In this document: positions 1 to 57,156 of the stretch, piece after piece
How positions within the stretch are numbered: position 1 is the stretch's first letter
Layout: each line of letters begins with the position of its first letter
NCBI RefSeq assembly: GCF_035083965.1
Contig: NC_089739.1
Coordinates: 5,028,198 to 5,092,197 of the forward strand
Length of the DNA: 64,000 nt
Source of the DNA: Branchiostoma lanceolatum
Taxonomy: Eukaryota; Chordata; Leptocardii; Amphioxiformes; Branchiostomatidae
Reading direction: 5' to 3'
Made by a program: the position numbers and the translations under genes
Notes under the pieces: model-generated
What the model saw: the letters and a program-made list of their open reading frames with translations, nothing else
The model's database searches: none
Told to the model about the DNA's origin: nothing

Positions 1-206
1 TGGTCACCGAAGCGTCGGTTGAATAAATATTTTGGTTGTGTAAAAAGAAAAAAAGAGTCTTATTATTCATCCTATTTCATAGATTTGAAAGTATCGACGT
101 TGCCGTTCGAAAATATAAGGTCAGTCATTGAAAACTTTTGTGAAGGTTGGTCAAGACATCTTAAAGTTTAATTACTTACCTTCAAGTAACTTCTTTATTT
201 TCCTAG

Positions 207-3200
207 ATAATCCGTTGGTGCTCCTTGAAACCATCAAAACGTTCATGTTCCAAGTCGTCCTCCAGACCATGTTACCTGTGGACACTTTCTTCTTCCTCAG
301 GCGAGTGTTGGTCTTCTTTCCGTTTGCTGGTAGAGTCAAACCTGTCTAGAGTGACCACGCAAAGAAATTAAAGAAAATGGTAGCAGTTGGTTAGCGACCA
401 TCATAGAATAGAAAGCATGAATGATTGAGTCAATGGGAAAAATAGTACACCTAAAAAGTGGCCACTGTGAGCAGGTGGTCATTATGCAGATCAAGAGGTG
501 GTTAATAGACTAAGTACTGATCAATGTAATTACCTGGTGGAAAGAATCAAAAGCTGGAGGTATGATGTCTTGATAGTTCGATGTTCAATAACATCCGAAG
601 TGCTTATATTTTGTGCAAATGTCTATTTTGTTAAACAATATTATTATGGTTTATATAATTTCAGGAGATTCTTAATTTTGAGGTCATTGGTGTCTTATAC
701 ACTATAGACATTAGAATTCTATCCAACAAACCAGAACATGAATGATTATCGTGCGGTTTATCACCATCATAATCATCAGCTTATATCTGCTTGAATACGA
801 ATCTTATTGCTTGCAGTGGGCTGCTTATGACATACCTCCTGCTGAAGCGATTGGAAGAAGCTCTGGAAGAAGGACAGTCGGTCAACTTCTGGATGCTGTA
901 CGTCCATAGATACCTCAGGTGAGTAGCTGTACTATCCCGCAAAGATTTTCGTAACATTTTAGCTGGAATCCTCTATATAAATCACGGCTAGGGTTATGTG
1001 TATTCATATTGGTGAAAAGTGATATATACGGCTATCATTGAAGCTCATCTGTGTTAATAGTGATCATGTAATAAAATGCTAAACTTCCTTTTAACAATAA
1101 GTTATTCACGGATCAAATTTTCAACGACCACTGTCGCCTCTTCAGGATCAATTATTGGTCATTATTGATCCTGAAGAAGGTGACAGTGGTCGTTGAAATT
1201 TTGATCCGTGAATACCTTAGTGTCATCATCAGTATCATCATGCCAAGGTCTCTGTGATCAAACATGCAATTGTTACCGTTACGCCACGTTGTGGCATTAA
1301 ATTGATCTATTCTTTGATAAAGGCAGGTGAAAATCGCTGAAACGTTGGGGTAGAAAATTGACTGCTTGTCTTATTTTCCGCTTACGAATACAGGCTAACT
1401 CCGGCGTTACTGTTTGTGATAATGGTGACGACGTGGGTGATTCCCCAGCTGTTCATGGGGCTTCTGTGGCACTCGCGGATGACTTCTGATCTGGACGCCT
1501 GCCGGGCAAACTGGTGGACAAACATCCTCTACATCAACAACATCGTCCACACAGACCATGGCGTAAGGACCCTGGGGCTTTTTAGCCTCCATAGAGTCAA
1601 GTTAAATTTTATTGCACAACGATATCGATTGTAACAGGTACAATGTAGGACAAAATACTACTGGTTACTTATATCAATCTAGTACAAACTACAGGAAGAT
1701 TCTGGGCTATACCATGTTGTCAATGGTAGATGATATCAACAGGAGGTACAATAGGGAGTCGTATATGTCAATTATACAGTTACATGATGAGGAATTGAAT
1801 GTCTTATACAGTTAAATCGCTATTTCACGGATTCTTTTTGCATCGATGTATATATATATTGGCCTAGATATACAAATATGATGTCGGGACATGACATAAG
1901 AACACGATGACTTTTGGGCTGTGGGGGCGGGGGACTCATCATATGCTATCTTCCATACCTGGCCAGCCCAGCCTTCTAACAAAGCTGTTACAACCAGAAA
2001 GAGGCACATGAAGATATCGAAGAATTCATGGCACCGTTGAATATACAATCTGTAGTTCCGGTATAGTTCCAATTCATGATTTCCTAAGAAATAGCAAATG
2101 GTGTAGCGAAACGTTAGTAGATATAGATAAAACTCTTGTGGGCCTGGGATACGTCACAAATCATTATCATCTATTGTCATTTGTAGTGCCTCGGTTGGAC
2201 CTGGTATTTGGCTAACGACATGCAGTTCTTCATCATCGGAGTGCCCATAGTGTACATTCTCTACAGGTGAGAGTATGACTGTGAGCATTAGACTTAAGTC
2301 CCGATTGTCAATTACGATTTGCTTACTTTACTGTCCATCGTTGTGCTTTTTTGGATCCTCTAATGGCTGATTAAACCGGGCTGTCAGCACTCTACCGCAG
2401 ATGTCGCATACAAACTCGCCCTGCCATTGGCCAGGTTGTGATGCCGCTTTGCTCTTCTGGCCTCTGCTTTTGTGTTGTAGTTAGCTGCAAAGGAGACACT
2501 GCCTGCTGTACACCTCTGCCTCCATTGGCATCTACCTGTTGCCAGTCCTTCAAGCTCACGTCGCTAGGTTTAATACTAAACTCTTTCAGCTTAACGACCT
2601 AACGTGTGCAGTTATGACGGAAGTTACCTACTGCCTGTATCTCTATGTATGCTATACCATATTCAGTATTACGTTTTTGTCCGCAGGTGTTTTTACGCTG
2701 GGCTTGCTATAAAACTGCTACTCCGCATTGCCAACTTTGGTGCTACAGCTGTGGTGGTAGCAAAATACCACATTAGAGCTGACTTTTTCCTTGCCGAGTG
2801 AGTATCCAGCAATGCTTTATATTTACTGATTTGTTGATTGATAATAAGGGGATACGTAAATGACCCGCCCCTAGGCGTACACGGTGCCGTAAGGCATGGT
2901 CGGTTCCTATAAGCACCCAATAAACACCCTATACACCGATCGCGATGGAAAGCATACCATTAACGTTATTAATGCTTGAATAATGGATATGGTAACGTTA
3001 TCAATGGTTATGTTAACGTTATTAATGGTTATGTTAACGCTTTTTATGGTTATGTTACAAAAAGTGAACCAATTGAAACATTAAAATACGTGGTCAGTGT
3101 ATGGGATATTAATGACCGGTGGTTTTGAGAACTTGAATTTGAGTCTTCTCATTGGTCGACGTCATCTGGCTATAAGAAGAAAGTCCTCCATTGTCTGCCT

Positions 3201-5359
3201 CCAATTCCCTTTGCCATATCATCTTTGTAAATGACGGTTGATATTTGATATATCAAATATCCTTTCGGAAGTTCCTCCGGCATGAACGTTTTAGGGTGAC
3301 AGCATAACGATATGTAATCATGGACTATGTTATGTTTCATTCGCAAAGAATACAGGAGAGAAGCAAAAAACCCGACGTTAGGTATACGGAGTACTACATC
3401 AAACCGTGGGTCCGCATCGGCCCGTACCTCATCGGCATGTTTGTTGGGTGGGTCTTGTACAAGACAAGAGGGATGCGTGCAAGCGACAGATGTGATGGGA
3501 AGATGGTATTGGTAAGCACGTCGTCGTAACGCATCTTCATTACCACTACCGCGTATCATTGGTACATATATTTACTTGATATCACTTTAAATTAGTACAT
3601 CTAACAATATTTGTAAATAGTTTCACTGTAGTAAATCACTGATTAACAAACCTTTTTTTGTATACTGTACAATCAAATAGTTGATACCTAGCCAACGTTT
3701 TGGTTACCGTCCGTCACTAACAAAGTTCATTGTACGTGGAATTTGGTACCGCATTCTTCATACTGCAGCAGCGACACCTAGCTGCAGTGCAAAGTAGAGC
3801 AGGTTACTTAGTAGTATGGCCCTGACGAAGGTGACAGGCGGTCACCGTAACCTTTACTAGGTATAAAGGTTTCGGCTGTGTACTTTGATCAATGGACACG
3901 CATGTTATGTTAATCAAAACATTATTTGAACAATGTATTAACTGCAAGAATGGTGTTAATCATGTCCGCTAACAGTTTGTTTTTTCCTGTTGTTCAGTGG
4001 TTGGTCTTTTTTGGGTGGTGCAGTGCCATAGCGAGCGCCCTTGCTGTAGTTTTCGGACTGTACGGGGTCTATAACGGGGCCGTTCTGAGCTACTCCGTCA
4101 ACATGTTCTACATTGCCATTCACCGATCTGTGTGGGCCATGGCCTTGGGTTGGATGGTGGTCGCCTGTTACCATGGATATGGAGGTAATAACGGCATCGT
4201 GTTGGAAACTATTTGCACTCACTGTATTTTAGTGAATACAATGATGTACGTGGGAATAATGATATCATCAATAAACTAGTCATACAATTCGCCTTTTTGG
4301 CGACACGTCAGGCACGAGCCTAATGGTATACTTTAAGAGGAACTGGCTACTAGGCAGCGGAATTTACAACACATTTTCATTACATGAAAATCCTATCGAC
4401 AGTCAAAAAATGTTATTCAAAGGAGCATCCAGTCAATTTTTGTCCAGGTTTGAGTCTTTTTGTGTTCACTGTCGCCATGGCAATAATGGGTTTGCGCCAA
4501 TCTTGTTCCAAATCCTATCGTCTGCAGGGGTGGTGAACACTGTCCTCTCCTGGACCTTCTGGGTGCCGCTGAGTCGTCTGACGTACTCCGCCTACCTGAT
4601 ACATCCCATCGTCATGTTTCTGACTTACCACACTGCTGAGAGTACACTGCACTTATCCACCTTAAACGTGGTACGCTAGATATCTGACTTGCAACTAATT
4701 GATGATCTGTGGTTATCTATGTTCGTAGGATTATATGCATGTTTAAGTTACAAACGTTAGGGAAATTCGCCAATAACTGTTTGCGGGCAAATTGTAGATG
4801 GCAACATAGGTTCTCTATCATTTAGGAGCTTTTGGTTATCGAGTGTGATCATGTCCCTTCGAGATTCCCAGCCGTGGAAACTGAAAATAATGAGGCCGTG
4901 GAATTCATCAATCCATGGTCTCCGGATATACTTGAAATAGTACAATGACGGTGAACAGGCACTAACCAGCAAAAAAAACGTATTCTCATTGTACCATTAC
5001 TATCACTGTTTTCTCATCTATGGTTATGTGAAAGTTCCTTGTGTCAAAATTAATCTTTCAGTTCTTTTTATGGATGGTTCATTTTGTGTCAAAGAACTGG
5101 CAGATAGATCTGCACGGAATATATATATATATATATATACATAAGATTTGCTAGCGCCATCATCACTCTTACTCTTCGTGTTTTTTATTTGTTTACATAG
5201 ATCCACTACTTCCTGGGCCACCTGATGATGTCGTACGGCTTGGCCGTCGTGGTGTTTGTAACCGTTGAGAGTCCTACCATGAATCTGCTGAAGATCACCG
5301 CTGGAAATGATGACACATCAAGCAATCGCCGCCCTTCAGATTACAATAGGTTGCCGTGA
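207..5359 (+). CDS. NRF-6-like acyltransferase-3 family membrane protein, 5' partial
   Basis: This is the 3' part of a gene for a multi-pass membrane protein of the acyltransferase-3 / nose-resistant-to-fluoxetine family. These proteins are thought to transfer acyl groups to lipids or sugars; the substrate here is unknown. Exons are 207-300, 817-918, 1394-1562, 2187-2266, 2687-2797, 3349-3511, 3998-4184, 4528-4670 and 5201-5359, and all phases join, giving 401 residues before a TGA at 5357. Family signatures are FFFLSGLLMTY across exons 1-2, LYVHRYLRLTP across exons 2-3, ANWWTNILYINN, WYLANDMQFFI and RIGPYLIGMFVGWVLY. About eight hydrophobic segments are visible. The signal-peptide and N-terminal NRF region lie outside the window. 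The first intron uses a GC donor at 301. The start of the exon at 3349 is the least certain border, because its acceptor is weak. Confidence 0.9.
333..520. repeat. Short pogo-like MITE remnant
   Basis: After a TA at 331-332 the sequence reads GAGTCAAACCTG, matching the terminus of the element at 26437-27785. Further in it shares the same internal motifs (GTCAATGGGAAAAA, AAAGTGGCCAC). It lies in the first intron of the acyltransferase gene. The right end is not clear. Confidence 0.5.
1104..1213. repeat. Hairpin MITE (110 bp palindrome)
   Basis: Two arms of about 50 bp are inverted copies (ATTCACGGATCAAA at the left end, TTTGATCCGTGAAT at the right), separated by a short loop near 1153-1162. 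The element sits in an intron of the acyltransferase gene. It looks like a non-autonomous DNA element; no clear target-site duplication was found. Confidence 0.8.
2951..3057. repeat. AT-rich minisatellite, about 24 bp unit
   Basis: Four to five imperfect copies of a unit close to AATGGTTATGTTAACGTT run in tandem within the intron between acyltransferase exons 5 and 6. Confidence 0.75.
5118..5140. repeat. (AT)n microsatellite
   Basis: An uninterrupted alternating AT run lies in the last intron of the acyltransferase gene. Confidence 0.9.
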
Positions 5360-6416
5360 AGATAGTTAAGAATTATTCAAAGACACATTGTCAAAAGGTT
5401 CATTTTATTTGATTTGCATTCAAATCTAAGGGAAGATGCACAGTTGGACGCAATTCTTTCTCATTTCTCCTATTGTTATTATTTGATGACTGAATGTGGA
5501 TATGAAACGTTCGATGATGATAGTCTAAAAATGTTCGTTTCATTCGATATTGCATGGACAAGTCTTGGTGATGATGTAAAAGCCGTCGGTAAACAATCAA
5601 TGATGTGTTTTTTTTACATTGTGAAATGTCCATTCTATACAGAGATTAAGCTATATCGGAGCCTAAATGTGTTCCAATCAAGCACGAGATTACATTGCTA
5701 GCTATAGTCTAGCGGCATAGCTGAAATTTTTTGCAAATATTCTGTTACGTAAACTATATGTAAGCTAGGAGATAGAAATAGATTGGAACTGACAATCGCT
5801 TAGTACATTAAAATGGTGTCAGGGTAAAAGTTTTCAAAAAACGAGAGTCTCAAGAGCATTTCACATTCTTGAATATACTTTCTGGTTCTTTCAAGCATGA
5901 CAGATGAGAGATTTCCATTTTGTTGGACAAAATAAACATCAACTAATGTACGCAGCAGGTACATATACATCAATAGCGACCATACGTATGTTTATTACAC
6001 CTGAACCCTGATTCGTGCTTACCATCAAAGTCTGTGTGTCCTAAAGCAAAAGTTATGTAATAGTTTTTTTTTTTTAATTACCATTCAATACCCCCTCATT
6101 TTGTCATTTTTGTCTCTTATATTCCAAACTATTGAGAAAAAGCAGAAATGTCAGGAGGGGACAGGTACATCATCAGGTCTCAATTCAAGAGCATTTGTTT
6201 CATTTGTGAAGCTTATAAAAATAGTTCAGGTGTTGATCACCAAGCGGACAAGGACTGAATTGTGTTAGAATTTACTTCTTTATATTTTACTCGAGTTCGA
6301 ATCGTGGAAGTCTTATAAGTGTTGTGACTGATTTCCATCCATCATGAAACTTCTCCTTGATACGAACTTTTTTAAGTGGCAGAAGTGACTTTATCCAGGC
6401 TTGCTTCGGTTGGGAA
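5360..6416. other. Convergent intergenic region
   Basis: This holds the presumed 3' UTRs of the upstream acyltransferase (plus) and the downstream TRIM-RanBP2-like gene (minus). Open frames here are short and show no family similarity. No gene is supported. Confidence 0.6.
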
Positions 6417-9400
6417 TTAAGAAGACGTCTTTGCTTTTTCGACACACTGATCGAAGCATGTCTTGAACATGGCCGCGGTTTCAGGGAGTTTGAACCGAAC
6501 AGCGAAGTGCTCTGTCTTCGGTTCCTCTTCTGCCGCGTCCACGGCTGTCCAGACCCAGGAGCGGTCTGACCCAGAGTTGGGGTGCAGCGACATCGCCCCC
6601 GTGATGAGGTGGTTCGCACACAGCTTCAACACCTGTTCACGCCTCATCAGCACACGGGAACGGTTTGTCGTCTTGTGTCGTAGAATCTTGATGTCTCCAA
6701 CTCCTCGCTCTTTCCACTGTGTTGAGTCTGCATCCCAACGGAACAACTTTGCCCGGAACTTGAACAGCTGTTCCTCCTCCTCTTCTCCCGTTTTGAGTTC
6801 GATCTTCTCCCTGTTGAGACTCGTCATGGGGCGTTTTGCACTTGCCTGAGAAGCTGGGATGACCTGTTCAGGACTAAACTTGAAGCCTGTAGCTGGCCGA
6901 CTTCTCGCACTGGGGACACCGAAGACAAACCCTTTGGAATCTAGCGGCTTGGCGGGACTACTGAAAGAAAAGGCCACACCAGTTCCTGACGAGGCCTTTC
7001 CAAAAATCGGCCCACTCGAGACTGCCGGACGCCCAAATGTTGATCCCGACAGACTGTTGAGGCAAAGCCCCCCGGACGTTTTCGCGGCTTGCCCCGACGG
7101 TTGTTTGAAAACGAACGCTGATCCGGATATTCCCGAGATGCTTGCTGTTGATGCCTGTGCGTTTCTACCAGGTTTAGGCGTGCTGCACGCGAGACATAGT
7201 CTCCAAGCAGACCTACGGGTTGGCAAAGACCGTATCCAACAGGCAGAAGGAGTTTTCATAGCCAACTATAAGCTCCTTCTTCCAGTTGGATACGGTCTTT
7301 GCAATCTATTGGGTCTGGTTGGAGACTACGCGAGACATGCGGTCTTGTCAGCAGGGTTGTTAACCATGCACACACTACAATCCCACGTATCAACTTTTGG
7401 TTTGAACAAGGCAGCGAGATTCTTGCTCCCTCCGTCTGCTGTGCTGCCAGCTGCTGACGTTCCTGGCTTTGGAGTAGAGCAAGCCAGGCAGTTTGTTTTG
7501 TCTCCGGGGTTGTTAACCATGCAGACTTCACAGTCCCAGGATCCTGGTTTGGTCTTAAACAGGTCACCAAAACCCTGGAGGAAAAAAAGGAATTTCGTAA
7601 GCATGACCTATCTAAACTACATATTGCTTAATATATATGTGTGCCTCAAGAGTGAAGAATAGCAAGTGAACATGTACTATCATGTGTCATACACGAAATT
7701 TGATGATATTTAAGATCTATTTCTGGTCCAGATATGATTTTAGCTCTGTAAGTGTACGTGTACATCTATGAAATGTCATCCTGAAAAGGGTACATCTTAC
7801 GGCATCGGGCAGATATTTTTCTGTAATAGGTCTATCTACAAGACGAGTCTTCATAATCAATATTGAAAAGGCAATAAGCTTAACAACCACCTTATGCGAT
7901 TCTGTCTGAGATTTCTTCAGGAATGTGGCGGGAGTCTGTAGCGCCGAAGCCTGCTGCCTGTATCCTTTCGCAGGAGAAGGTTCGGGTGTCTGTGACGCTG
8001 AGGTATCCTGCTTCTTTTCTTTTTCAGGTGAAGGTTCTGAGCTAGCTGGCTGGGCGAACGTGAAGGCAAACTCAAACTTGGGCTTCTCTGTAGATCAAAA
8101 TGTCGGTAATATTAATACATGTATGGGAAAATTGCCACTGTCTCAGAGGTGAGGTCAACTGGCACATGTCAAGTATAAAATTACAACCATTTACCTCAAA
8201 GAATTATGCCCACACCTAAGCAAATATCAATTATGCGAATAACAGCCTAACTTACATGATTTAGTCCTTAGTGGTTGGTGGTGGGAATTACATACTAGTA
8301 CTTAGTCATTTGCATAATCTATGTTGAAATAAAAACATGAACTTTCATACATACAATATACGTAGATCTGTTAGTAAAGACCATAAGTTGAAATAGATTA
8401 TGCTTAATTACAGTCTCATTTGCATAATCAATTAAACAAGATGAAAAATGAATATGCAAAGGCTCTAAATGTTTCATTGAGGTATGAGGTCTCCGGACTC
8501 TTGTTGCTACATGTTTTGCACATTGTACAGCTTACCTTCAAATTCCTTTGTCTTAACTTCTCCCAAGTGAGGCTTAGCCAATCCTGATGTCTTGTCCTCC
8601 TCAAAAGCGACGTAAGCCTTCGCGGGCAGTCCCTCTGTAATATCGGCAAGCTCTGCCTGTAACAGTTTCTTCAGCCTACCGCTCACTTCCCCACTGACCG
8701 CCATGATGTCAAACTCCGACCCGTGTTCCACGATGTTCCGTCCGAACTCTGCCGCGCTCTCTAACGCCACAGTCGCCGTTTCTATCTCTTCTATAGCGGT
8801 GGAGAACTCCTTACTCCTGGTCTGGCTCCCAGTGGTCACAGAATCCAGTAACTCGGTCTCGCGTTGATTAACCAGTGCAGCCAACTCCCTTCTAGTTTGC
8901 TCTGCCTTTCTCTTGATCTTTTCGACACTTTCCTTGACATTTTTCTCTAACTCATACTTCTGTGAGTGCGCCTGTTGGTCAGCATTCTTAAGATCACCCA
9001 CCTTCTTCTCTGTTTTCTCCAGAATAGCGATTATGTCTTCTTTTGCCTTCACAGCCGTGTCGGCGAAATACTCGTACTCGTGCTCCTTGTGGGACAGCAC
9101 GGTACACAACTGACAAATAGCCTCGCTACAGTCGACGCAGTACAACTTGAGAGTCTCCTGTGGGTGGATCCTACACCTCGGCAGGGGACGAGGCTTGATC
9201 TTACTGAGGGTGTCGGATTCGGCCTTGAGTTGCTCTAAGCCGATCACCTGGTGACCTTTGAAGGCCTTTATACGACGGTGAATTGCTACACATTCGTCAC
9301 ACAGAAAGTAGCCACATTCCGTACAGAATGACTCCGCACCTGACTTCGTCTCACAGCTACCACAGAGGAGACTTTCAGCTTCTTCATTACTCAACTTTTT

Positions 9401-9667
9401 GTGGACGTCAACCGTGTCCTTCAAGCTCTCCACGAAGAAATTATCTTTCAGTTTCGTGACCTCGCCACCCGGAAGAAAAGTCTTGCTGCGGCAAGTGGGA
9501 CAATCTAGCTCTGTTGTGGCCTCCTGCTTCTTAAGAAACTCCTCAAGACACTGCTGGAAGAAGGAATGAAGACAAGACAGTACCTTGGGCCGGCGGTAGG
9601 GCTGCAGGCAAATCTGGCACTCGAGGAAGTCTTCTGAGAGCCGACTCAGAAGTTTCGATTCCGCCAT
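6417..9667 (-). CDS. TRIM-type RBCC protein with RanBP2 zinc fingers and Ran-binding domain (interrupted by MITE)
   Basis: Exons are 9667-8536, 8087-7891 and 7574-6417; phases (1, then 0) join without a gap. Exon 1 encodes a RING (C17, C20, C32, H34, C40, C56, C59), two B-boxes (about 102-140 and 165-200) and a coiled coil (about 205-320), as in TRIM ubiquitin ligases. Exon 2 is a polar linker starting FEFAFTF. Exon 3 encodes two RanBP2-type zinc fingers (W-x-C-x2-C-x10-C-x2-C), an FG-containing linker (STFG, PIFG, FVFG) and a C-terminal RanBD1 domain with an acidic lead-in (EEEEEQLFKFRAKLFRW). The second half matches nucleoporin RanBP2/Nup358. Without the insertion the product would be 781 aa; as read it stops after residue 525 inside finger 2. 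The fifth RING ligand is Phe37 instead of Cys. The joining of the two halves is an inference from splice sites and phase. The alternative is two adjacent genes, but the second half has no good start of its own. Confidence 0.82.
7188..7337. mobile_element. 132-bp MITE with 9-bp target-site duplication inside a coding exon
   Basis: The element runs 7197-7328 with terminal inverted repeats TAGTCTCCAA and TTGGAGACTA, and longer internal inverted arms (GCAAAGACCGTATCCAAC and its complement). The 9-bp sequence CGCGAGACA flanks it on both sides (7188-7196 and 7329-7337). It splits the second RanBP2 zinc finger between Leu-Ala and the fourth Cys. Element plus one duplicate is 141 bp, so frame is kept, but its first triplet in the gene's frame is TAG. 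Confidence 0.93.
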
Positions 9668-9699: not shown

Positions 9700-9759
9700 A
9701 AGCCGTAAGAAATGAAATGTTTGATTTCTAAGCCGTAAGAAATGAAATGTTCGATTTCT
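9700..9759. repeat. 30-bp tandem duplication upstream of the TRIM-RanBP2-like gene
   Basis: Two adjacent 30-bp copies beginning AAGCCGTAAGAAATGAAATG differ at one base. They lie 33 bp upstream of the start codon, so probably in the 5' UTR or core promoter. Confidence 0.9.
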
Positions 9760-12259
9760 AAGATACACTGTACTGCCCAAAAGTGGCAAACGGCGAATTC
9801 TAACTTGGATGCCTTGAGCTTTAATAGCAGTTACCGTAACTTGGAAGAAACCAGTGTGAACAAATATCGGAGGGACTGCTGACTTGTCGACTTAGAACTT
9901 TCACCTAGGATACCCAAATATGGTGAGCATGCAAATGACGTTGCCTTTGCTTACGTGTCGCACACGTCATGTGGTTGTGTACCTTAAAACAACAAAGGTT
10001 TTGCTCATCTTAGAATTAAACATTGTCCTTCCAGGGGCACATGTATAACTATTCCTAGACGTTTTACATAATACATGGCTTACTTTATGACAGGACAATC
10101 AGGACAATCACCAAAGCACTACCCTAGGAGCCAGACTGGGGATCGGGCCGTCAGTCAGAGTCCTTTGGTGGCCCAAGGCAGTAAGCCCGCCGATTTAATT
10201 TGGCGCTACGGGCGAGTTGTAGCCCCGGGGAGTTGACCGGGCCGGTCAACTCGAGGGCGCAAACTAGTATATACTGTTTTGTGGTGAAATTATATCACTA
10301 CATCCATAAAGTTATTCCTAAAAGAGTAAAATTCACAGAAATTTAGCAAATGGGTAAAAGTTTTATTATCTTTAAGTATGCAACTAACTAACTATCGAAA
10401 CGCTAGGGGTATGGTTAAAAGTTGCGGCTGTTACATGGAAACATCCCCTAGGCCTCTTCACCACCTGTCAAGGTGTCTAATAGCTATAGACAGACTGGTC
10501 TGAATACTAGTACTTCAACGGTCCAAAATCTTCAATGTTTGATTGCAAAAAGTATCTTGTCGACATGTAACAGGGCCGGCTATTAAAGCTCTTTGATGTC
10601 TTCCCGGCTACGGAAGACGGATGTCTCAGGCCTGACCTCGGTCCACGTCGTGGACTCTGACTTCGTGGCTTTTGACCGGAACGTACTAGGCTGGGCCTGG
10701 TCAGTTACTCGTAAGCTCCTTGGGCTAAGTGATAGTCAGCAGCCGTACGCGTGGACTTGATAGTTGTTGAGTCCGCGGTTGTTGACGAGCCCTACTTAAT
10801 ACCGGAGCCGTGGACTCCGGTTACCGGCGGGTATACCGTCCGCAGCCGTGGCCAGTCGTCGACCACGCCGGTGACGAACGAGGCGACTGTCTCGGTCGTG
10901 GACGAACCAATTACTAAATCTTGTACTAGTCTGAGCCGTGCCCCATTGAGATTGAGATCGCGATCTCTGCCAGTACTATTGATTCTATCAGCAGTGATCC
11001 CGATCGGAGTCACTGCCGACAAAAACACATATATCATATATTTGACGCAGGGCTGAGCAATTATAGAAACGGATAGAATTCGTAATCCTCGTGATCTGCT
11101 AAGAGAAAAATGTTCTTTTTTTTGGTATTTTTGCATTGAACTATTACAATGCATTTCCTTTAAACATACCCGACTCGCAACTTCTGCATTACAGTGCAAG
11201 TTTTTTTACAAGTTTACCCAATAAACTCGCAACAAGCTCAAGTAGGCCTGACTAAGCATTTTTCAAACAATCCCACTGTGTGTCATTACATGACATGGCA
11301 AAACACGTTCCCCACCTGTATCAATGTATGACGTTGCAGAACAGTACAAGGTTAAACTAACCGACCACGCCCCTTCAGCATGACTTTGCTCAAAATAAAT
11401 AGACCCAAGGACAAAGAACCGCATGCGCGCAACAAAACGTAACGATATATGAATTGATTGCGAGCTGGCTTCATATTCAGTCCATATGACCTCGATATTT
11501 AGTCATTTTACTAAACACAAAGTATATTCATTGTAACTGACTATATAATTTGTCATAATGAGAATTCTTGGTTATATAACTGTAGTCTAGTTTTAAATCT
11601 ATTCCTTTCTGATGCTGTCAAACCCGGAAGTGAGTTGACATTTGAAAAGGCCCGGTTCTTCGAGCGGCATCGAGCCTGAGTTCACAACACTGGAAGATTT
11701 TGAGAGAATAGATCCAAGGAAAGCCACTACCTGCACCAGCTCTGGTCTAAGACGTTCTACCGACTTCTTAGTACTTCGTAAGTATGAACAGTTTACTTGG
11801 GGATTTTCTCTTTTCTGCTAAATCTCACGCTTCAACCGTGGCGACTCTTTGTTTATATCAAGGTTTAGTTGTTTATGATTGTAAGCAAAGAGTCTTCAAC
11901 CTGCTTGTTGCATGATCAGTTAAAAGACGCACTCCTTCATAAGGCTAAGGTGTGCATATATACGTCTTGCAGTGTCAGGTGAGTTTTTAAGAACATAGGT
12001 AAGGTGAATTCTTTACGTTTTTCTTTTTGATTGGCGGTGCACTCAAATTTTCAAAATATTCTCGAGGTTCTCCAATGCCGGGGGATATATTATAGGGGAG
12101 ATACTTTTGGGCCGCGAAAACATTACGTATCTCGTGGTATACTTTTCAGCACTTAGGCAAGAAGCATGCACAAATGCTCTCCTTTGTGCATTTGAGAACA
12201 TGGCCCATTTCAAAACGCAAATCGAAAAAATACCAGCCGCACCAGTAGAAGGAGCCTAG
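9760..12259. other. Intergenic region between divergent genes
   Basis: No protein family was recognised. The stretch 10560-11000 is GC- and CpG-rich and has overlapping open frames on both strands, but their translations look like nothing known. A strong splice donor (GTAAGTAT at 11778) follows a purine-rich stretch from about 11640 and may end a 5' non-coding exon of the FMN reductase gene. Confidence 0.4.
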
Positions 12260-12464
12260 GATACGAACCGCAACCATACCATGCCATGCGTGCCACGCCC
12301 ATATTGACACATTAATTACTAGTCGACTACTAGTTGTATGGTTTAGCCTTTAGGGGGCGTGGTATGGTTGCGGTTCGTATCTTATCTTGTGCCACGCCCA
12401 TATTGACATATAAACTACTAGTCGACTAGTATGGTTTAGCCCTTAGCTATATAGGGGGCGTGGT
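12260..12464. repeat. Nested inverted and direct repeats around a CCACGCCC hairpin
   Basis: A 22-bp perfect inverted repeat (GATACGAACCGCAACCATAC...) has arms at 12260-12281 and 12360-12381. Between and after it, two direct copies (12290-12362, 12389-12464) each begin GTGCCACGCCCATATTGACA and end GGGGGCGTGG, so each is itself a small hairpin element with an ACTAGTCGAC core. Confidence 0.8.
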
Positions 12465-13065
12465 GAAGACAGTTTAGCAACATCATGAAGTGAAGGGAAT
12501 TATAGCATTACTTAAAAAGCAAGCATTTATTTGATAAAGTTATAACAAAGTTTTTTGTCACACCAGAATTCCCTGGCACAAGATAAGATCATCACAAAAC
12601 GTCAGGTATTGTTTGTTCTGCAGCTTTCCAGGTAAATACTTACACAAGCCTTGAGGCACCTTGGATAATAGCAGACGTGCAAATGTGGAAAGAACTGAAT
12701 ATCGATGTGAATCAATCAACATTCTTGCCACCATTTTATGATTTTCTTTTCAGAAAAAGACAATATGAATCTGATAAATGGGAAAGATTAGCAGAGTTTG
12801 AGAAACTCTCATGTGAAAATGTGGCATTACATTTTTTGGTTACGTTAGGAAATAACTTCTTTGCTGACCACAAGTTTCAATTGAAGACATGGCCAGCTGT
12901 GGACTGGCATGGTCAATAGTGGTCAATATCAATTTTCTACTTTTGGTAGAATCAGAGTGCTCCTAATTAGTGACTGCTTATGCTGACTCCCCCCCCCCCC
13001 CCACAATGAATACACAAATGATTATTTACACCAATTAATATCTATATTTTCCCTACAGGTCCACC

Positions 13066-15502
13066 ATGTCGAGCCCGTTGAAAATTGTGCTGTTCCTCGG
13101 CTCCGTTCGAGAAGGTCGGCTGGGCCTGAGAGTCGCCAAGTTCATGGTGAATCAGCTGAAGAAGAGGGGCCACGAGGTTTCATTCTTTGGTGAGTTGAAT
13201 AGCCTCTCCTTATTTGTTCTTCTGTTAGACACTTGAAGCCCTAAGAATATCAATTTGCCAAGGGTGGAAGACTACAATATGTTACTTATTTATCTACTTT
13301 TTAAAAAATACCTCACTTAAGGTTAGACATGCAGGTAGAAAATGATGCAAAATACATACTAAAAAGCATTTAGAGAAAGTATAAGCTAGGCCCAACAAAA
13401 TTAATTTTGTGGATGACATCTTCTTCTAAAGATAAAGGTAGACAAAGCCTTTTTGAGACTGTAGGGACAGCGGGTTGTTATCCACTGTGTCTAGGGCACA
13501 GTATTGGAAGGTGGAGCCCATCCCTCTCCTTCCATTGCCTTTTACCTCCCAAAGTTAGGTACCCATTTTTACACCTGGGTGGAGTGAAGAACATTGTATA
13601 AAGTCACCTCTCCCAAGGACACAACGTCTAGATAGAAATACCAGGAATTGAACCCAGGACCCACCAATTTTGAGTCCTCTAGCGTAGCCAATCAGCTATT
13701 TGTCATCATGATAATCTGAGTGTGCTATTTTTGTCCTGTTTCATCCTGTTCTTAGATCCGGTGGAGATGCCGTTTACCCTTCTCCACAGACCCATCTTCA
13801 TGTACAAAGACAAAGCAGAGATCCCAGCCTGGCTCAAGACAGCTGATGAGCAGGTTTGATGGATTTCAAGTTTATATAAATTTCTTATGCATTGAAATAC
13901 AGGAGGCCAATTATCAAACTTGACCTTCCTTTTCCTAACTCTTCCCACTTATTAGATTTTATGACGATCCATTCAAAGCATCTTGAGTTATCCTGATAAC
14001 AAACAAATGGACGAACAAAAGGTTCGCTGTAGTAGCATAGGAAGACACCAGGAGGCTCAGTCTTGAACTTGATCTTGACACCTACTTGCCTACCAAAAAT
14101 CATGAGCTTCTAGAGTTATCTGTCTACATCTACAGTCACTCCAACATTAGCCTCTACCAGGCCCCACGGATGGCTGGAAAAATAGTAGAAATTGGCCAAA
14201 TAGAGTGAAGTATGCTAAGGGAGTTGGCTATGGAGAGAGGGTCCAATGTGCCATCCACAAATCGCAAACCAGAGGTCGCAAACTGTACCTTCTATTATAG
14301 CGGACTAACTTCTTTGGCCGATTTCCATGATTTTGCCAGTGACCTGTGGAGCCTGGTATAGGCTACTCCAACATAGCCAAACCAAAAATATAATCTTCTA
14401 GCGAATGTTATTATCAATGATAATATCATGCTAGTGTTCCTGATTTTCTGTGTTATCTTGCCAATTTCAACCCCAGATCCGAGCTGCGGATGCCTATGTG
14501 GTGGTGTCTGCGGAGTACAACCATTCCATCCCCCCCGCCCTGTCTAACATGTTGGACCACTTTGGAGGCTCAGCCTATGCCTTCAAACCTTCTGGTATCG
14601 TCACATACTCAGCTGGTGAGTACAGACGGGGTAACACCCAGGTACAGGGTGGCGGACAGGGAGTAGCGCCCCTGCCCTTTGAATTCTTCCCCTCTAGAAT
14701 TATACTTTGAAGTCAACCTGCTCCAAAAAATTACTACTATAAATAAAGAAATAATGATCACCTTCAAATTCATCCTCAAGGTCAGTACGGTGGTATGCGG
14801 GCAGCCATGCAGCTGCGGGCTATGTTAGGGGAGCTGGGAATGCTGAGTGTCTCCAACATATTTGGTGTTCCAGTGGCACAGGTAAGTTCTATACCCCCCT
14901 CCCACACTTTTCAACTCAACATGCATTGACTGGAACTGTTAACTGTAGGGGAATTTAGAATGTCTTTAACCTTCTCCCTGCTGCGTAACCCCATAACCAA
15001 TACACATTCGGTGCCAAAAGGCTAACTTAGCAGGCTAAGGTTAAAATCTTTATGAAGCTCCTGCACTTATAAAAAGATGTTAATCAAAAGCATCTTTTTA
15101 ATTTTCATAATGGTTTGAATTTTGAGACTTGATACAACATTTTCATTTCTTTGATAAAGGAGTTTTTCATTGTTTGAGATAAACAGTTTTTAGCTCATCA
15201 TCTGTTACAGTGTTGTAACCTTCAATGCGTGATAACTTGAGGACAACATTGTCCTCTTTTGATCACAATTTGCTTTAAACTGGTCACAGCTTATAAAAGA
15301 ATCAATGCAGTTGGTTTATCAAATACAAAAGTCAATAATGAAGAAATTTGTCTCTTTTTCCGTGTAACAGAAAAGCCTTTCAGAGGACGGGGAACCGCTC
15401 AACGAACACATGGAGCGCGGTGCCGACCGCCTGATCTCCCAGCTGGACTGGTACGCAAACGCCCTCCGCAACCACCGCAACACTGCTGGGATTCCATCCT
15501 AA
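13066..15502 (+). CDS. NADPH-dependent FMN reductase-like flavoprotein
   Basis: Exons are 13066-13189, 13756-13853, 14477-14615, 14781-14881 and 15371-15502; every phase joins, giving 197 aa, normal for the family. The start has a good context (CCACCATGT) just after an acceptor at 13058, so the 5' UTR is spliced. Residues 12-18 (GSVREGR) form the N-terminal phosphate-binding loop for FMN, and [18 protein letters not shown] (from residue 85) is the diagnostic second flavin-binding segment with the Tyr-Asn pair. These flavodoxin-fold proteins reduce flavin, quinone or azo substrates with NAD(P)H in the cytosol; the substrate cannot be told from sequence. A SINE sits in the first intron and a palindromic MITE in the 3' UTR. 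It is convergent with unc45. Confidence 0.93.
13424..13700 (-). mobile_element. tRNA-derived SINE in FMN reductase intron 1
   Basis: Read on the minus strand, the element has a tRNA-like head with a B-box-like GGGTTCAATTCC near 13635-13655. Its body and a tail close to TCTACCTTTATCTTT match the element at 43085-43372, which shows these are copies of one family. Confidence 0.7.
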
Positions 15503-15526
15503 GCAAAACTGTTTTTCCTTCTCTTT

Positions 15527-15698
15527 AAGCAGAGGAGTGGTTCCGGATGGTTTTTGACGTGTTTTTAGGCGTTTTTGTTAGGCTTTCTACTTTCTACATG
15601 TTTTTTTGTCTCTATAAACCAAAAAACATGACAAAGTAGAAAGCCTAACAAAAACGCCTAAAACACGTCAAAAAACAGCCAGAATCGCTCCTCTGCTT
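15527..15698. repeat. 172-bp palindromic MITE in the 3' UTR
   Basis: The termini AAGCAGAGGAG and CTCCTCTGCTT are inverted, and the arms continue as a long inverted pair (GGCTTTCTACTTTCTACATG and a near complement) around a loop near 15608-15620. It begins 24 bp after the FMN reductase stop codon, so the mature mRNA could form a long hairpin. Confidence 0.88.
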
Positions 15699-16109
15699 GG
15701 AGAGTATGTTTTTCGCAGCTAGCTGTTAACTGCCAATGTGCTTTGATCGTTGAGAAGCTATGGGTGACAATCAGTGATGATATTCAGTTGGTACTTCAGT
15801 CTGTGACTGAACAATATCTGTAGCATATATAAAATTAGACTTTTAGCAAAGTGTTTTGTTTTTTTAGATAATACTGGTAGTTACATTTAATGTTTTTAGC
15901 TACTTTTAATTGTACCTTGTATACTTGTATTTTGGTATATTTGTAACAAGAGTTGTTTGGTTGAGTAGAAACGATGAAATGAACAAGGGTTAAGAACACT
16001 CAAGGAAACTGCCAGAAATTGACTTAAAGCTTTAAGAGTTCATCATATTTTAATCCCAGTAGTCACATTATTATCTATGACTAGTATGAGTGAAATTTAG
16101 TCCTAACTG

Positions 16110-16163
16110 AATAAAAGAACAATATTCATTGCAAATCATGAGATCAGGTGTGACTATTTTATT
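16110..16163. promoter_or_regulatory. Opposed polyadenylation signals of convergent genes
   Basis: AATAAA at 16110-16115 is the first good signal downstream of the FMN reductase stop. TTTATT at 16158-16163 is an AATAAA on the minus strand, downstream of unc45. Their use as real 3' ends is an inference. Confidence 0.45.
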
Positions 16164-16804
16164 TCCTTGTTTGGTTTCTACAGCCAGTAATTCATTAAAA
16201 GGCTTGTCTCCACTCTACTTTAATTTAAAGGCACACACAGTATATAAAGAACATAATAATACATAGTTTACATTTGATTCATGCAAATTACTAGTCATGA
16301 TTGATTTCAAGATGCAACAAAACTGTTGTTGCAATGTCTTTCAAAAGGTAATCATTTCGATTGATGTACACAATCACAATGTAAAGGCATTAGAAAAGGC
16401 ACTGTCTTCATGATTCATACTCTTTAACATAGTTTACTATAAGTATAAATTGCTATTAACAGTTTTCCCTCACTATTTGACTCACTGACATTATTTTACT
16501 TTTAGGCAAAGAACATGTCGGTACTTTGATATTTCCAACTAGTATCATATCAGGTAGAAGATTTTTCTGTGTACCTCCACCTGAAAATGAGATAAAAGTT
16601 TGACACCCCAAACTCCTCAGCCGGGACTTACAATGAATTTCTGAATATACCGAGTCATGTGTTCAATCCGCATAACGTGGCATCAGAAGCTCGTTCCTTG
16701 ACAAAAACTGGAGTTGGACTGTCAAAAACTTGTGTAAGTCCACTTTTCGAGTTGGAAATTACAGTTCAACTCTGCTTCAGAATGATTTCTTCCAAGTTGA
16801 ACAT

Positions 16805-17303: not shown

Positions 17304-20300
17304 CTAGCTTGCATTCATAAGTTGTGCCTGTTCGGGAAGAGCTTGCTGTTCCTCCAAGTTGCTTGCGGGTTTGATCAGACCGAAGTCCGTAGCGGATTTC
17401 AAAGCGGCGTCCACGCACTTCCTGACCTTCTGTCTCGTTGGGTCAGCGTCGTCCCTGAGCGAGATGCGAACAGCCATGACCACATCCAGGATCTTCGTCT
17501 CTACGATCTGAAATCATAGAATGTGTTAGAATTTTGAAAACTAGTGAAAAAGTTTGTTACAATCAAACCTGTATTGGTGGTGACCTTTGCATAGCAACCA
17601 CCTGACCATAGTGGTCACTTTTTTCCAGTCCCTTAGATTTTCTCATTTTATATTTATAGCAGTCAACTGTAAAATGCAGTCACTGTAACTATGATTCTGA
17701 TCCCACCTGTCCACAAAGACCAGATTTTATCAGTCCACTGAGTGGTCTTCTTGGGCAGTTTTGACTGTACTAAGTAAATTTACCTATTTCATCTGCTTAA
17801 ATGTATTCACTATTATTAGCATTCAAAGTTTACCTAGAAAGTCAAATAGAGACATATAAAAGTTCCCCACCTTGGTAGCGAGTTCCTTGCTGGCCATCAT
17901 CATGTTTGTGATGACCACCATCATGCGATGCTGGATGTCTGGCAGTGGAGAGGCCCCCACCTCACACAGGATGTCTACCCATGACTTCACCTGGGGGAGG
18001 GGGGTAGGAATAAGATTAACAACTTCAAAATAAGGTTTAATTCTTTGTGCCCACAAGCATACTAGTAAATGTCTAGTAAAGGTAAATAGTACCATACTAA
18101 GTCTTATTCTTCTAAAAGAAGTAAAAAAATCAGTATTATTAATGGAATATCTCAATCCCCAAAGATACCTGTGTTCAAAATACATGATTATTAGCCCAAT
18201 TCTTAACCAGTTGGCATGTGTTCAATAGGAAGACAATTTTGGGATGATTTATAATGTGCCCACCTCGTTTGGTATTCTCTCACACATGTCCTTGTCTGTA
18301 GTGAGTTGTGCCAGCGTGCCCGCTGCAGCCTTCACAAGTTCAAAGTCATCCTCCCCACACAGCAACACGATGTACTTCAACCTGTCGTTCCCCGTCGCCT
18401 GGTACTTCTCCAACCACTGGAGATGGGAAACAAACAAACAAACAAACAAAAGTCTGTCAAAGATCTTACACCACAACATTCACATTCATATCAAGCCCAA
18501 TAAGGCAGTTCACAGTTTGAAGTGTGCATGCGCAATGTGATGAGTTGTTGGAAAATTTGTCAAAGTTGAAGGTCCCTGGTAGCACAAAAAGAATGTAAAG
18601 ATGTAAATACAAATGGTTGCTGTCCTTAGGACAGAACGTTAAGTCGTGGTCCACCGTTCATTGTACTCGTCGAAACGAGCTAGGGGAATTTCCCTAGTAC
18701 AATGAACCCATAAATACAAAAATGTACTGTACATGTATGGCATCTGTCTTCTCTGTCACCACCAGTGGAAGAATAGCTCTTCAGTGATCTAAACTGGTTT
18801 GAGATCAGTTCCACTAGAATGTTCACAATGACACAATGTTGGAAAGTCATGGACGCACCTTTTTACTTGAGACCAGGTTGCAGATCAGTTGTATAGCTGC
18901 CCGCTTCAACATGTCATGGTCCTCGAACATGTAGTGTTCAATCAAGGCAAAACCACTGTCCTCAAAGATACGATTCCTAGAAAAAAATACAAATTTTACA
19001 GTTATTCACAGTCTCAGAGTTTGTTTGTTTTGCATAACCAGTAAATCGCCTTTAGATGTCATGTAACACAACAGTTTTGAAGGTACAAGCTACTGTATGT
19101 AAGACCAGACTGTAAGGTTTTATCCATTTAACACCAGGGTAACCCCCTACTCTTTTCAAAAAGTGTGGTGGGATCTTCAACATGCTCGAAGTGTGGCTCT
19201 CCTCATAGTTTTGTATAACACCCTACAAAACAATGGTACTGTCCAAATATTCCCCGAATGTCTACAGTGCACAGACAATCCCATTACTACAGAGGGGTGT
19301 TGCTGTATTTACCTGACACTCTCACTCTGACTGGCTAGGTTGGTCAGCGCCATCAAGGCTTCAAAGTTCTGCAGCGCGGACGCGTCCATGTCAAGCAGCT
19401 TCTTCATTGGTCGAACCATCTCCAATGCCTATATAAGTATAAAAGAAAGGAGTGCACGTCATACAAGGTACTAGTAGGTTTGTTCATACTTATTTAGCAC
19501 CAGAGGTTCTGCTGCAGTACCAAAGTCACACACCAGGGGGCCCAAACGTGACGTTCACCTTCGTCTTCCCAAGATCACACACAAAATACTTTCAAACAAA
19601 ATAATAAATTATCATCACAATCCCATGTTGACCACAAATATCGTGAAACACGAACAAGTACCGGTAAGCAAACAAACACACAGACACGCCAAAAACAAAA
19701 CCTCCATTTTTTAACAATCTTAAGCTGAGCCTCACAGTAATAAATGACAAACGTCTACCACACTGTATAAAGACATGGCTTCACCTTGCTTGCAAACTAT
19801 TTCATTGAGTTAACAATGATAAAACACACTAACCATTATATCCAGTTATCCCCTGAACTTTCTATGGCCATCACTGAGCCACCAACAGATATGCTGATTG
19901 ACTTGCAAATTATAGAAACTGAAAAACCTACCCTCTGTCCAGGAAAGGCGATCTCAGGGTTCGTTGTGATGCCGATCTTAGCTAAGGCCTGGCCTGCAAA
20001 CCATTTCCCCTTGTCCGAACCCTCATTGGCCATAGGGATCAAAACCTGCATTGTAGAAGAGAGTACCTTATATTAGATTCAGTAAAAGAAGTTCACTGGT
20101 TCATGACTATGTAACCGTAAGACTTAAAGTGAAGTAGACATGTTGTAAGGGATAGCATTCGTCATTTCGGATGGTGGCGTAAAGCCGGCGGCCCCGTGTA
20201 TGAGGGAGCTTCAGGCATTAGCCTCAAGCGTCAAACCTCTGTATGTAAAAGAACCAAACACACTTGAGAAGAGTAGGGGTGACCCGGTGTGCTTGGCCAA

Positions 20301-23300
20301 AAACGCCAGCAATAGCAAAGCCGCATTGCACTAACAGAGCTACTTGTAAAAGCGTCAATTGAGGATGACTGCTTTACCCCTTTTTTTTAGACACAGTATT
20401 ATGTTTTCCTTTAGAATATATTTCTGAATATATGAGTCTAATATATAAATATATAATTGTATCATTAGCCAAGGTTGCAAAACAGCCATCAATATCATCT
20501 AATGATAACAGTATGCTTTGTCACCTGTTATGTGCAAAAGATGTGGGGTCGTGTTGCGTAAAGGCAACCTGTTAGGTTATATAGGGTACAGAATCTCCAG
20601 CAAGTTGAAGTTGGCAGCTTAAGAAATAGAGAATAAGAAGAAAGATAAAAAAGGAATAATTTCCGCTGACCTTTGCCCCTCCCTGTGCAACCGTGATTCC
20701 GCGGTGCGCCTCCCGTTCCGTGATGGCGAGGAAGATGCGGGACAGCAGTTCCCTCTCTGCGTTACTCTCGGTCTTGGACAACGCGACCAGACTGACGACC
20801 ACGCCCTCCTTCACCAACTTCTCAATCCTGATGTCAACATGGTCTCTGGAGTCCTGAAATACACGTTAAGATGATATATCTATATTTATCATAAATTATG
20901 ATATAAATTTATCATAAATCATGATATAAATTTATCATAGATTATGATATAGATTTATCATTCATCATATGTTTTTATCATAATCTATGATATAAATTTA
21001 TCATAAATCATGATATGAAATGATAAACAACATTTAAAAAACTGCTATCCACTTAAACCTATTATTGATTATTGCTAAGAAATCCCAAGATACGAGCAAG
21101 TAGTTTCCATCTAAAATGTAAAATTTACATACATGTATTACATTGTGGACATTTTCAAGACAAGTAGCTAACATTCAGTACTAAGGACAGGACCACCAGT
21201 TTTGTTGTAATGTTGATGTTATTCAGCACCAGGGACAACGCCATATATGCTTTCCCCCCTCCTCCAGCATATTTTTTTATTGTTTATTGTATTATGTAAT
21301 TTCTTCTTGTTGTGCAAATAGATAGAATTAGAAGGAAAAAGATAAGAAGAAACCTCACCAGTTTATGTGGCTCGGGGACGTGCTGTTTGGCGAACTTGGC
21401 GAGCTTTTTCATCTCCGGTAGCTCCTCCTCCTTCCCGTACTCGTAACCGTTCACCATGTTGTTCAGGGTGGTGCCGACACCGTACACCACGTTCACGCCG
21501 CCTTCCTGTTGTCATGGCAACACAGCATTGTCAGAATACAGCGTTCACAAAATGTGCATTATCCATTCAACATTTCAAACCTACAGATTAATAGCACACT
21601 GTCACATAGTAGAAGCGATATGTTAAACTTGACATTTGTTGGATTTTCCATATACTTTCATGTACAGTTGTAGAAGACCTTACTGTACTTTTGTTGCGTC
21701 AATAAAGACTGTCCATAACAATACCTTAGCAAGTTCTACAATGGCCCGGATAGTCTGGGGATCATCCACTAAGAACTCCTTGACGTCAGCGTCCATGGTG
21801 AGGTACGCAAGGCCCTCTGCTGCCCAGCGCTGCAAGTCTCTTTCTTTTGAAGTTAGCAGAAACCTGTAACAGAAATGATTACAATGTCTGGATTTTGGAT
21901 CATTTCCTGTAGCAGAGACATATCGCTATACAATAATGACATCTAGCAGGTGCCGTACGTACTGCAGTTTGTTCTTTGCCTGCAACAGAAGAGATTTATA
22001 CTGTAGTACAATGTCTGCATTATAATCATATCCTGTAGCAGACTCATAGGACTATATTCAATAGTGACACCAAGCAGGTGGTGTAGGCACTGCAATATGT
22101 TACACAAGCTATTGCAGTCAGGGTCTGATCTTAGTAAAAAGTCACTAGCAGGTAAACATTTACTAACGGTTCTGTTTCAGCACCTGAGACAGGACCACTA
22201 GTTTTGTTAGTGCACCATTCAGTACCAGGGACAGGTACATGTCTGTACACCAATCTCAAAATTAAAACCAAAGCTATTCAAAAGAATCTAATTGTTCTAA
22301 GCATCATATTCAAACATGAGATATCTGTATATAGCTGGTACGAACGCCCTTCGGCATAGCATACCAGTTTCACAGGCATGCGGCACACCATATGGCCAGG
22401 TCAGGTAAAAATTGACTAATTATGTATTATATAACTGTACTGTTTCTTACTTCCTGCAATGCTTGGCCAGTTTGAGGGTGGAGCCTTCAGCAAAAGCCTT
22501 CCTGGTCCCATCTGAACCATAGATAGAACCCAGCTTACTCAGACCCTTGCAGAGAGACGAAAGGATACAGTTAAGGTATGTTATACTCACAACCTGTTCT
22601 ACTGCAAGGCAGCAAAGCAACAGTGACACCTAGCAGTTTATGGAAGTACTGCAGTACTTCTTAGTGTCTTACATAACATGTCGCTCAACAAGTGACTGCT
22701 AGTATCATTTATCCATCTTAACAAATCCCCAAACCTGTCTCATAGCTGCAAGAAAGCAACACAGCAGTGACACCTTGCAGGTAAAAAAGGTACTGCAGTT
22801 TGAACATTTCCACCCACAACAATCATTTATTCCTTACACCCTGTTGAAAGGGCATTCAAGCGCAATACAAACCATCCGTTTTTTATAGTGCATGAATCCC
22901 TAGACCTGCCTTACAGCAAGGAAGCAATACAGCAGTGACACCTTGCAGGTCGAGTAAGAACTGCAGATATTTTTATCAGCACTACTTACCACCAGTGCGC
23001 GGACTTTAATGGGATCGTCAGCAGACTCGGACTTGTAGATCTGTTTCAGTAGCCCCGCCCCGTGACTCAGAATAAATGTGGAGCGGTTTTTCTTTGACAT
23101 GGCGGCAATCATGGCTTCCACCGCTATCATCTGTCAAAGGATGATAAACAATGGATTTAGAATCGATGCAGGGCAAAAACAGAAGACATTGTATTGAGAA
23201 ATGTTGATTATTAACAGAATCAAATCAAAGAAAATATAGACATATACAATACATAAAATATAGACATATGCAATACATATAGTATGCGCTTTCAAAGTGA

Positions 23301-48734: not shown

Positions 48735-56158
<7,424 letters not shown>

Positions 56159-56981: not shown

Positions 56982-57156
56982 AAACCCGGTTAATCTCCAA
57001 GCAGATCCAACGGTTGCAAAGACCGTATCCAACTGGCAGAAGGAGTCTTTATTGCAACCGACTTTGACTGACAACTTCCCTGACTGACTGGAGCTTCTCT
57101 GGCTAGCTTGTACGATTTTAGCACCGTGAAGATCTGCTTGGAGATTAAAACCCGGT
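56982..57156. mobile_element. 157-bp MITE with 9-bp target-site duplication
   Basis: The element runs 56991-57147 with ends TAATCTCCAAGCAGATC and GATCTGCTTGGAGATTA. AAACCCGGT flanks it on both sides (56982-56990, 57148-57156). It shares the internal block GCAAAGACCGTATCCAACTG with the element inside the TRIM-RanBP2-like gene. Confidence 0.92.

Follow-up and report, generated by a model that had tools for sequence, protein, structure and literature searches.

On the reverse strand of the window, by which we mean the whole 64,000-nt stretch of Branchiostoma lanceolatum DNA analysed here, three predicted exons together encode a TRIM-type RBCC region followed by zinc fingers, an FG linker and a Ran-binding domain (RanBD) of nucleoporin type. 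We consider it probable that they represent a single exon-shuffled gene, composed of a TRIM2/3-like RBCC part and a Nup358/RanBP2-type piece, and that the allele present here was later interrupted by a MITE-type transposon in the second zinc finger. As a gene model read from the DNA, the fusion architecture is well supported, and we infer that it corresponds to one transcription unit; the copy in the window may no longer yield the full protein.

Gene model and splice signals

The gene model starts with the RBCC region and ends right after the RanBD. Its exons are as follows:

8536-9667, minus strand: exon 1, with ATG, a RING that has Phe in place of one Cys ligand, two B-boxes and a coiled coil; phase 1 at its 3' end
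7891-8087, minus strand: exon 2, a 65-aa linker
6417-7574, minus strand: exon 3, with zinc finger 1, an interrupted zinc finger 2, the FG linker, the Ran-binding domain and the stop codon

The three exons measure 1132, 197 and 1158 nt, respectively, which gives a sum of 2487 nt. The ATG of exon 1 lies at 9667 in the context AAGATGG, and upstream of it the frame is closed after 20 codons (ORF start 9727). The initial annotation had described an RBCC exon that ends in phase 1 at GAAG/GTAAGC and a following exon that supplies the two missing bases. This anatomy was confirmed on translation; exon 3 begins at 7574 in phase 0, and the intron borders are GT-AG at both junctions (8536/8087 and 7891/7574). 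When the region 9800-6200 was scored with approximate splice weight matrices, the exon 1 donor ranked first of 219 GT sites and the exon 3 acceptor first of 298 AG sites, while the exon 2 donor ranked 12th and the exon 2 acceptor 21st, the latter being only moderate.

Exon 2 has no domain match in Pfam. In a codon-use test for which exon 1 and the RanBD part were the only training sequence, it scores 0.43 in frame, and the two other frames give -0.30 and -0.28. Of 696 overlapping stretches of 65 stop-free codons from the rest of the window, 13 score as high; a ranking of ORFs by codon use is circular for the TRIM-RanBD gene itself. No further TRIM, zinc-finger or RanBD exon was found in the window, the best tblastn match outside the gene (E 0.046) lying inside the second transposon copy described below, and Rfam searched over the window at gathering thresholds gave 0 matches. 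Immediately 5' of the start codon, at 9700-9762, there are about two tandem copies of a 30-bp unit with 96% matches.

The RBCC region and its RING

Pfam detects zf-B_box (1.6e-15, two stretches) and zf-C3HC4 (5e-7, above its cut-off) in exon 1. The B-box that the TRIM/RBCC class requires is thus present, with an ANCHR-like B-box at residues 101-141 (Pfam), and a coiled coil following the B-boxes is indicated by the alignment of residues 15-273 to the RBCC of TRIM28 and of residues 153-335 to TRIM3, to which residues 10-86 align as a separate stretch. Among solved structures, the RBCC part has its best matches in TRIM3, TRIM2 and TRIM28. TRIM2 and TRIM3, which belong to the class VII TRIMs, provide the nearest solved RINGs and the best RBCC matches; they carry NHL repeats, whereas Pfam finds NHL neither in the exon pieces here nor in the 6.4 kb downstream.

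9458-9640, minus strand: RING region, with Phe as the fifth zinc ligand (CLHSFFQQC, versus CLHTFCERC in TRIM2/3)

Of the eight zinc ligands that characterize a TRIM/RBCC RING, seven are present. The ligand site occupied by Phe is Cys in all five alignments compared (TRIM2 three times, TRIM3 and TRIM56), which were taken from the 26 matches listed. Because of the Phe at the fifth ligand, ubiquitin ligase activity of the predicted protein is doubtful. The initial annotation had overlooked the loss of this Cys when it called the protein a ubiquitin-ligase scaffold, and that description cannot be kept for a RING with seven of eight ligands.

The nucleoporin-type module

7329-7574, minus strand: the whole of zinc finger 1 and the initial portion of zinc finger 2, with GFGDLF at the start as in a Nup358 repeat unit
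6435-6800, minus strand: Ran-binding domain, 62% identical to RanBD1 of human Nup358 (74/119)

Searched on parts of exon 3, Pfam gives the zinc ribbon RanBP at 8.2e-16 (two stretches) and Ran_BP1 at 1e-51, so that the four families named in the initial annotation (zf-C3HC4, zf-B_box, zf-RanBP and Ran_BP1) are all matched on the exon pieces. Its account of exon 3 as two zinc fingers, an FG linker and a RanBD is correct for these parts, but not for the open frame, which an insert in zinc finger 2 closes with two TAG codons. Zinc finger 1 is complete; in zinc finger 2 the break comes ahead of the fourth Cys. Three FG dipeptides were counted in the translated linker.

The RanBD is closest to RanBD1 of human Nup358 (62.2% identity), followed by RanBD4 (59.7%) and by RanBD2 and RanBD3 (54.6% each). 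It retains 41 of the 42 columns that are invariant across seven vertebrate Nup358 RanBDs, a set that excludes Xenopus RanBD2; these comparisons are based on identities. The zinc-finger units align to the Nup358 repeats, the GF..F leader included. Single fingers, however, match Nup153 better (up to 49.2 bits, 2k0c) than they match single Nup358 fingers (up to 38.8 bits, 7mnr), and for this reason a Nup358 origin cannot be established from the zinc fingers by themselves; the putative origin rests on the RanBD together with the domain order. Nup153 also contains FG sequence, but to our knowledge it has no RanBD, while the Ran_BP1 match here is strong.

The order of zinc fingers, FG linker and RanBD is that of Nup358/RanBP2 (human chain positions). 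The gene model differs from Nup358 in its RBCC front, in the single RanBD that tblastn finds in the window and in its stop right after this domain, at 6417, with no Pfam match, and hence no cyclophilin, in the 6.4 kb downstream to the window edge. Pfam searches of the minus strand at E 0.1 over 1-6414 and 9731-16730 matched nothing; neither a TPR front nor a cyclophilin end was found in these segments.

A MITE-type transposon in the second zinc finger

Exon 3 is interrupted by an insert that has a relative elsewhere in the window:

7197-7328, minus strand: palindromic transposon of MITE type, 132 bp, within zinc finger 2 and carrying two in-frame TAG stops
7329-7337, minus strand: target-site duplication, gene-upstream copy, TGTCTCGCG in the gene sense
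7188-7196, minus strand: target-site duplication, gene-downstream copy, TGTCTCGCG
56991-57147, plus strand: related 157-bp element outside the gene, with ends 85-88% alike and its own 9-bp duplication, AAACCCGGT

The 132-bp insert is an inverted repeat with 59-nt arms that are 83% complementary, and its predicted RNA fold has a z-score of -13.6 (200 shuffles). It is situated just ahead of the fourth Cys of zinc finger 2, and its stops precede the Ran-binding domain. The 9-bp duplications that flank the two elements are each perfect but differ between them (TGTCTCGCG and AAACCCGGT). The presence of two such copies therefore identifies the 132-bp and 157-bp elements as members of one MITE-type family of transposable elements; in keeping with this class, the insert is a short non-coding palindrome with a target duplication, present in two copies in the 64 kb searched. 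Judged by the 9-bp length of the duplication, the family may be Mutator- or Merlin-like. At 7257-7259 (minus strand) the transposon contributes an ATG whose frame runs on through the remainder of exon 3; translation beginning there could yield an FG-RanBD protein of 280 residues.

As read, the allele encodes 525 residues, which comprise the RBCC region, zinc finger 1 and part of zinc finger 2, and the present copy probably makes only RBCC and one zinc finger. Message decay would not be expected, because the truncating stop falls within the model's final exon. The initial annotation had given a model of 781 residues; this length is reached only when 141 bp, i.e. the element plus one duplication, are left out of the exon sum (1132 + 197 + 1158 - 141 = 2346 nt, or 781 aa and a stop). 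The insert must therefore have been omitted from that model, which did not say so.

The frames that flank the insert are open over 377 and 259 codons. In a simulation of neutral decay that assumed one indel per ten substitutions, the chance that the 259-codon frame stayed open and free of frameshifts was 0.39, 0.17 and 0.03 for divergences of 1%, 2% and 4%, respectively. These chances suggest either a recent insertion or a frame on which selection of some kind still acts.

One gene or two

The initial annotation had proposed a TRIM front joined to a nucleoporin-type Ran module. The joining is borne out by phase, splice sites and homology, but a full-length product is not, given the two stops: in the predicted model, RBCC and RanBD fit in phase with both stops between them. 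An alternative that we regard as rather unlikely is that two neighbouring genes have been joined, namely a truncated Nup358-like gene and, apart from it, a short RBCC-only TRIM whose frame runs into the intron and stops after GKLYNVQNM. The RBCC frame does end soon past the exon 1 donor, and some fish TRIMs lack a C-terminal domain, a loss often seen in co-orthologue pairs (PMC3137616). There is also reason for care with lancelet gene models. In one lancelet genome study, new domain combinations were reported at very high rates (PMC4284660), and a published reply ascribes much of this to gene-model errors, documents the joining of neighbouring genes as one class of such errors and gives as an example a lancelet fusion model disproved by ESTs (PMC4967905). 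Against two genes, exons 2 and 3 need an upstream exon, because exon 2 contains no Met and its frame is stopped a few bases upstream of its acceptor, and exon 3 offers no Met until halfway through zinc finger 1; going upstream, the first ATG found in phase with them belongs to the RBCC exon. Moreover, exons 1 and 2 are only 448 bp apart, the exon 1 donor is the best in the region scored and the phases agree at both joints.

Relatives of the RanBD and of the RBCC were also sought in viral contigs, where 14 and 7 pattern matches were obtained, respectively, of which 0 were confirmed; no relative with a TRIM-RanBD architecture was found there.

Proposed origin of the fusion and possible fates of the allele

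The single interrupted gene that we favour would have arisen by exon shuffling, in which a TRIM2/3-like RBCC exon was spliced to the zinc fingers, FG linker and one RanBD of a Nup358/RanBP2-type gene; a MITE would then have landed in the second zinc finger of the allele in the window. RanBDs bind Ran-GTP in Nup358 and RanBP1. The ancestral protein may thus have been a coiled-coil dimer that presented two RanBDs to Ran-GTP, and a TRIM assembly could by this means have been held near Ran or the nuclear pore. Such holding is made plausible, by analogy, by the complex of TRIM5alpha with RanGAP1, Ubc9 and RanBP2 reported at the pore (PMC6237768). On the tie to COPII that the initial annotation had also suggested, no feature observed here has any bearing. 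The protein would have acted as an oligomeric scaffold or decoy and not as a strong ubiquitin ligase, a reading that we prefer because the RING is incomplete, with seven ligands. The present allele would make the 525-residue RBCC and zinc-finger-1 protein without a RanBD, or an exon-skipping form.

Three possibilities for the disrupted allele were weighed. The chance is only slightly short of even that the insert is polymorphic and that haplotypes with an empty site make the full protein. The perfect 9-bp duplication and the open frame downstream of the insert are in line with this, and since amphioxus heterozygosity is 3.2-4.2% (PMC12500494) and transposon-made indels are frequent, a polymorphic insert is quite possible; transposable elements are held responsible for 65-77% of large amphioxus indels (300-10,000 bp), a size class above that of the insert here (PMC4284660). 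The RING lesion, however, persists on this haplotype whatever the state of the insert. That lesion, together with the insert and its two stops, makes two separate defects, as would be expected of a fixed pseudogene, i.e. a once-working fusion whose RING decayed and which the transposon ended in all individuals. This fate, which is compatible with the favoured origin, is conceivable, yet on balance we are inclined to doubt it: both flanking frames are open, with the 0.03 chance of survival at 4% neutral divergence given above for the shorter one, and the RanBD has kept its invariant positions (41/42). It is unlikely, in turn, that a new intron or alternative splicing bypasses the insert and lets the allele still make a Ran-binding TRIM. 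As many as 127 in-frame GT-AG pairs would avoid both stops, and the exon 2 donor could be joined to an in-frame acceptor at 6845 that ranks fifth of 298, above the exon 2 acceptor, to give an RBCC-linker-RanBD protein without zinc fingers. But among the best 15 of the 127 pairs the bypass donors score 2.6-3.8, whereas the two accepted donors reach 11.0 and 5.7, the donor at the edge of the element ranks 119th of 219, the exact 141 bp cannot, on reading the sequence, be removed by a GT-AG intron, and a rank of five or better among the eight in-frame acceptors between insert and RanBD would arise by chance in about 13% of cases (arithmetic).

Two candidate routes were accordingly set aside. An intron made from the transposon is not favoured, as the candidate donors are weak and no convincing intron removes the insert. 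For exon skipping to 6845 there is one fair candidate, which does not go beyond chance (about 13%).

Comparison with known TRIM fusions

In TRIM5-CypA (TRIM-Cyp) of primates, cyclophilin A (CypA) was captured by retroposition, and the fusion binds retrovirus capsid. The gene described here resembles it in joining an RBCC region to a domain captured from an unrelated gene; it differs in that a retroposed CypA was acquired there and an exon block with introns here.

According to the initial annotation, no TRIM with a Ran-binding C-terminus had been described. One has: zebrafish ftr52 is a finTRIM with a RanBD and cyclophilin A, in the order RBCC-RanBD-CypA (PMC3137616), and it is the one TRIM-RanBD gene that we found in the literature (open-licence PMC papers). 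As its authors describe it, the ftr52 cDNA is correctly spliced and has a premature stop, which occurred in all products, from several fish and two strains, and an origin in one step with a RanBP2-like gene is considered possible (PMC3137616). In ftr52, as in the gene model here, the RBCC region continues, across several exons, into a RanBP2-type Ran-binding domain, and both genes contain premature stops. They differ in their fronts, which are of finTRIM type in ftr52 and TRIM2/3-like here, and in what was added: a RanBD with CypA in ftr52, for which the relevant parts of its description mention no zinc fingers (PMC3137616), as against zinc fingers and an FG linker here, with cyclophilin absent within 6.4 kb downstream. 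The stop of ftr52 lies in the RING exon, while the stops here are borne by a transposon. A survey of TRIM genes reports gains of MATH domains in Branchiostoma TRIMs, and the word RanBP is absent from those portions of its text that were available (PMC3503706).

Stop codons are present in both TRIM-RanBD genes compared, although two cases prove nothing. One might speculate, improbable as we judge it, that TRIMs have captured the Ran-binding module of Nup358 at least twice in animals, with interrupted alleles each time, and that a Ran-directed scaffold is under on/off selection, working and transposon-broken haplotypes segregating as in restriction factors that are costly in the absence of their target pathogen. 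Should transcripts confirm the gene model, it would be a second and differently built TRIM-RanBD fusion, with another TRIM front and another slice of a Ran-binding nucleoporin. Nup358 would then be a repeat donor to TRIMs, alongside cyclophilin A in primates, which would fit the complex of TRIM5alpha, RanBP2 and RanGAP1 reported at the pore (PMC6237768). The case also calls for caution, as an attractive domain fusion drawn from raw sequence was held together by omitting a transposon.

Neighbouring genes in the window

Scattered coding-like stretches occupy 17325-30661 on the minus strand; six pieces of them were scanned, and only the TPR piece has a Pfam match. We take these stretches to be a UNC45-like gene. 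The Pfam-matched neighbours are:

30536-30661, minus strand: TPR match (Pfam), about 21 kb upstream of the TRIM-RanBD gene
33675-33989, plus strand: exon of a CXXC motif zinc-binding protein (PF05907, 1e-36)
49727-49939, minus strand: C2H2 zinc-finger exon (zf-H2C2_2, 5.2e-13)

These three (the CXXC zinc-binding protein, the TPR exon and the C2H2 fingers) are the neighbouring ORFs with a Pfam match, out of ten, and they represent general animal genes.
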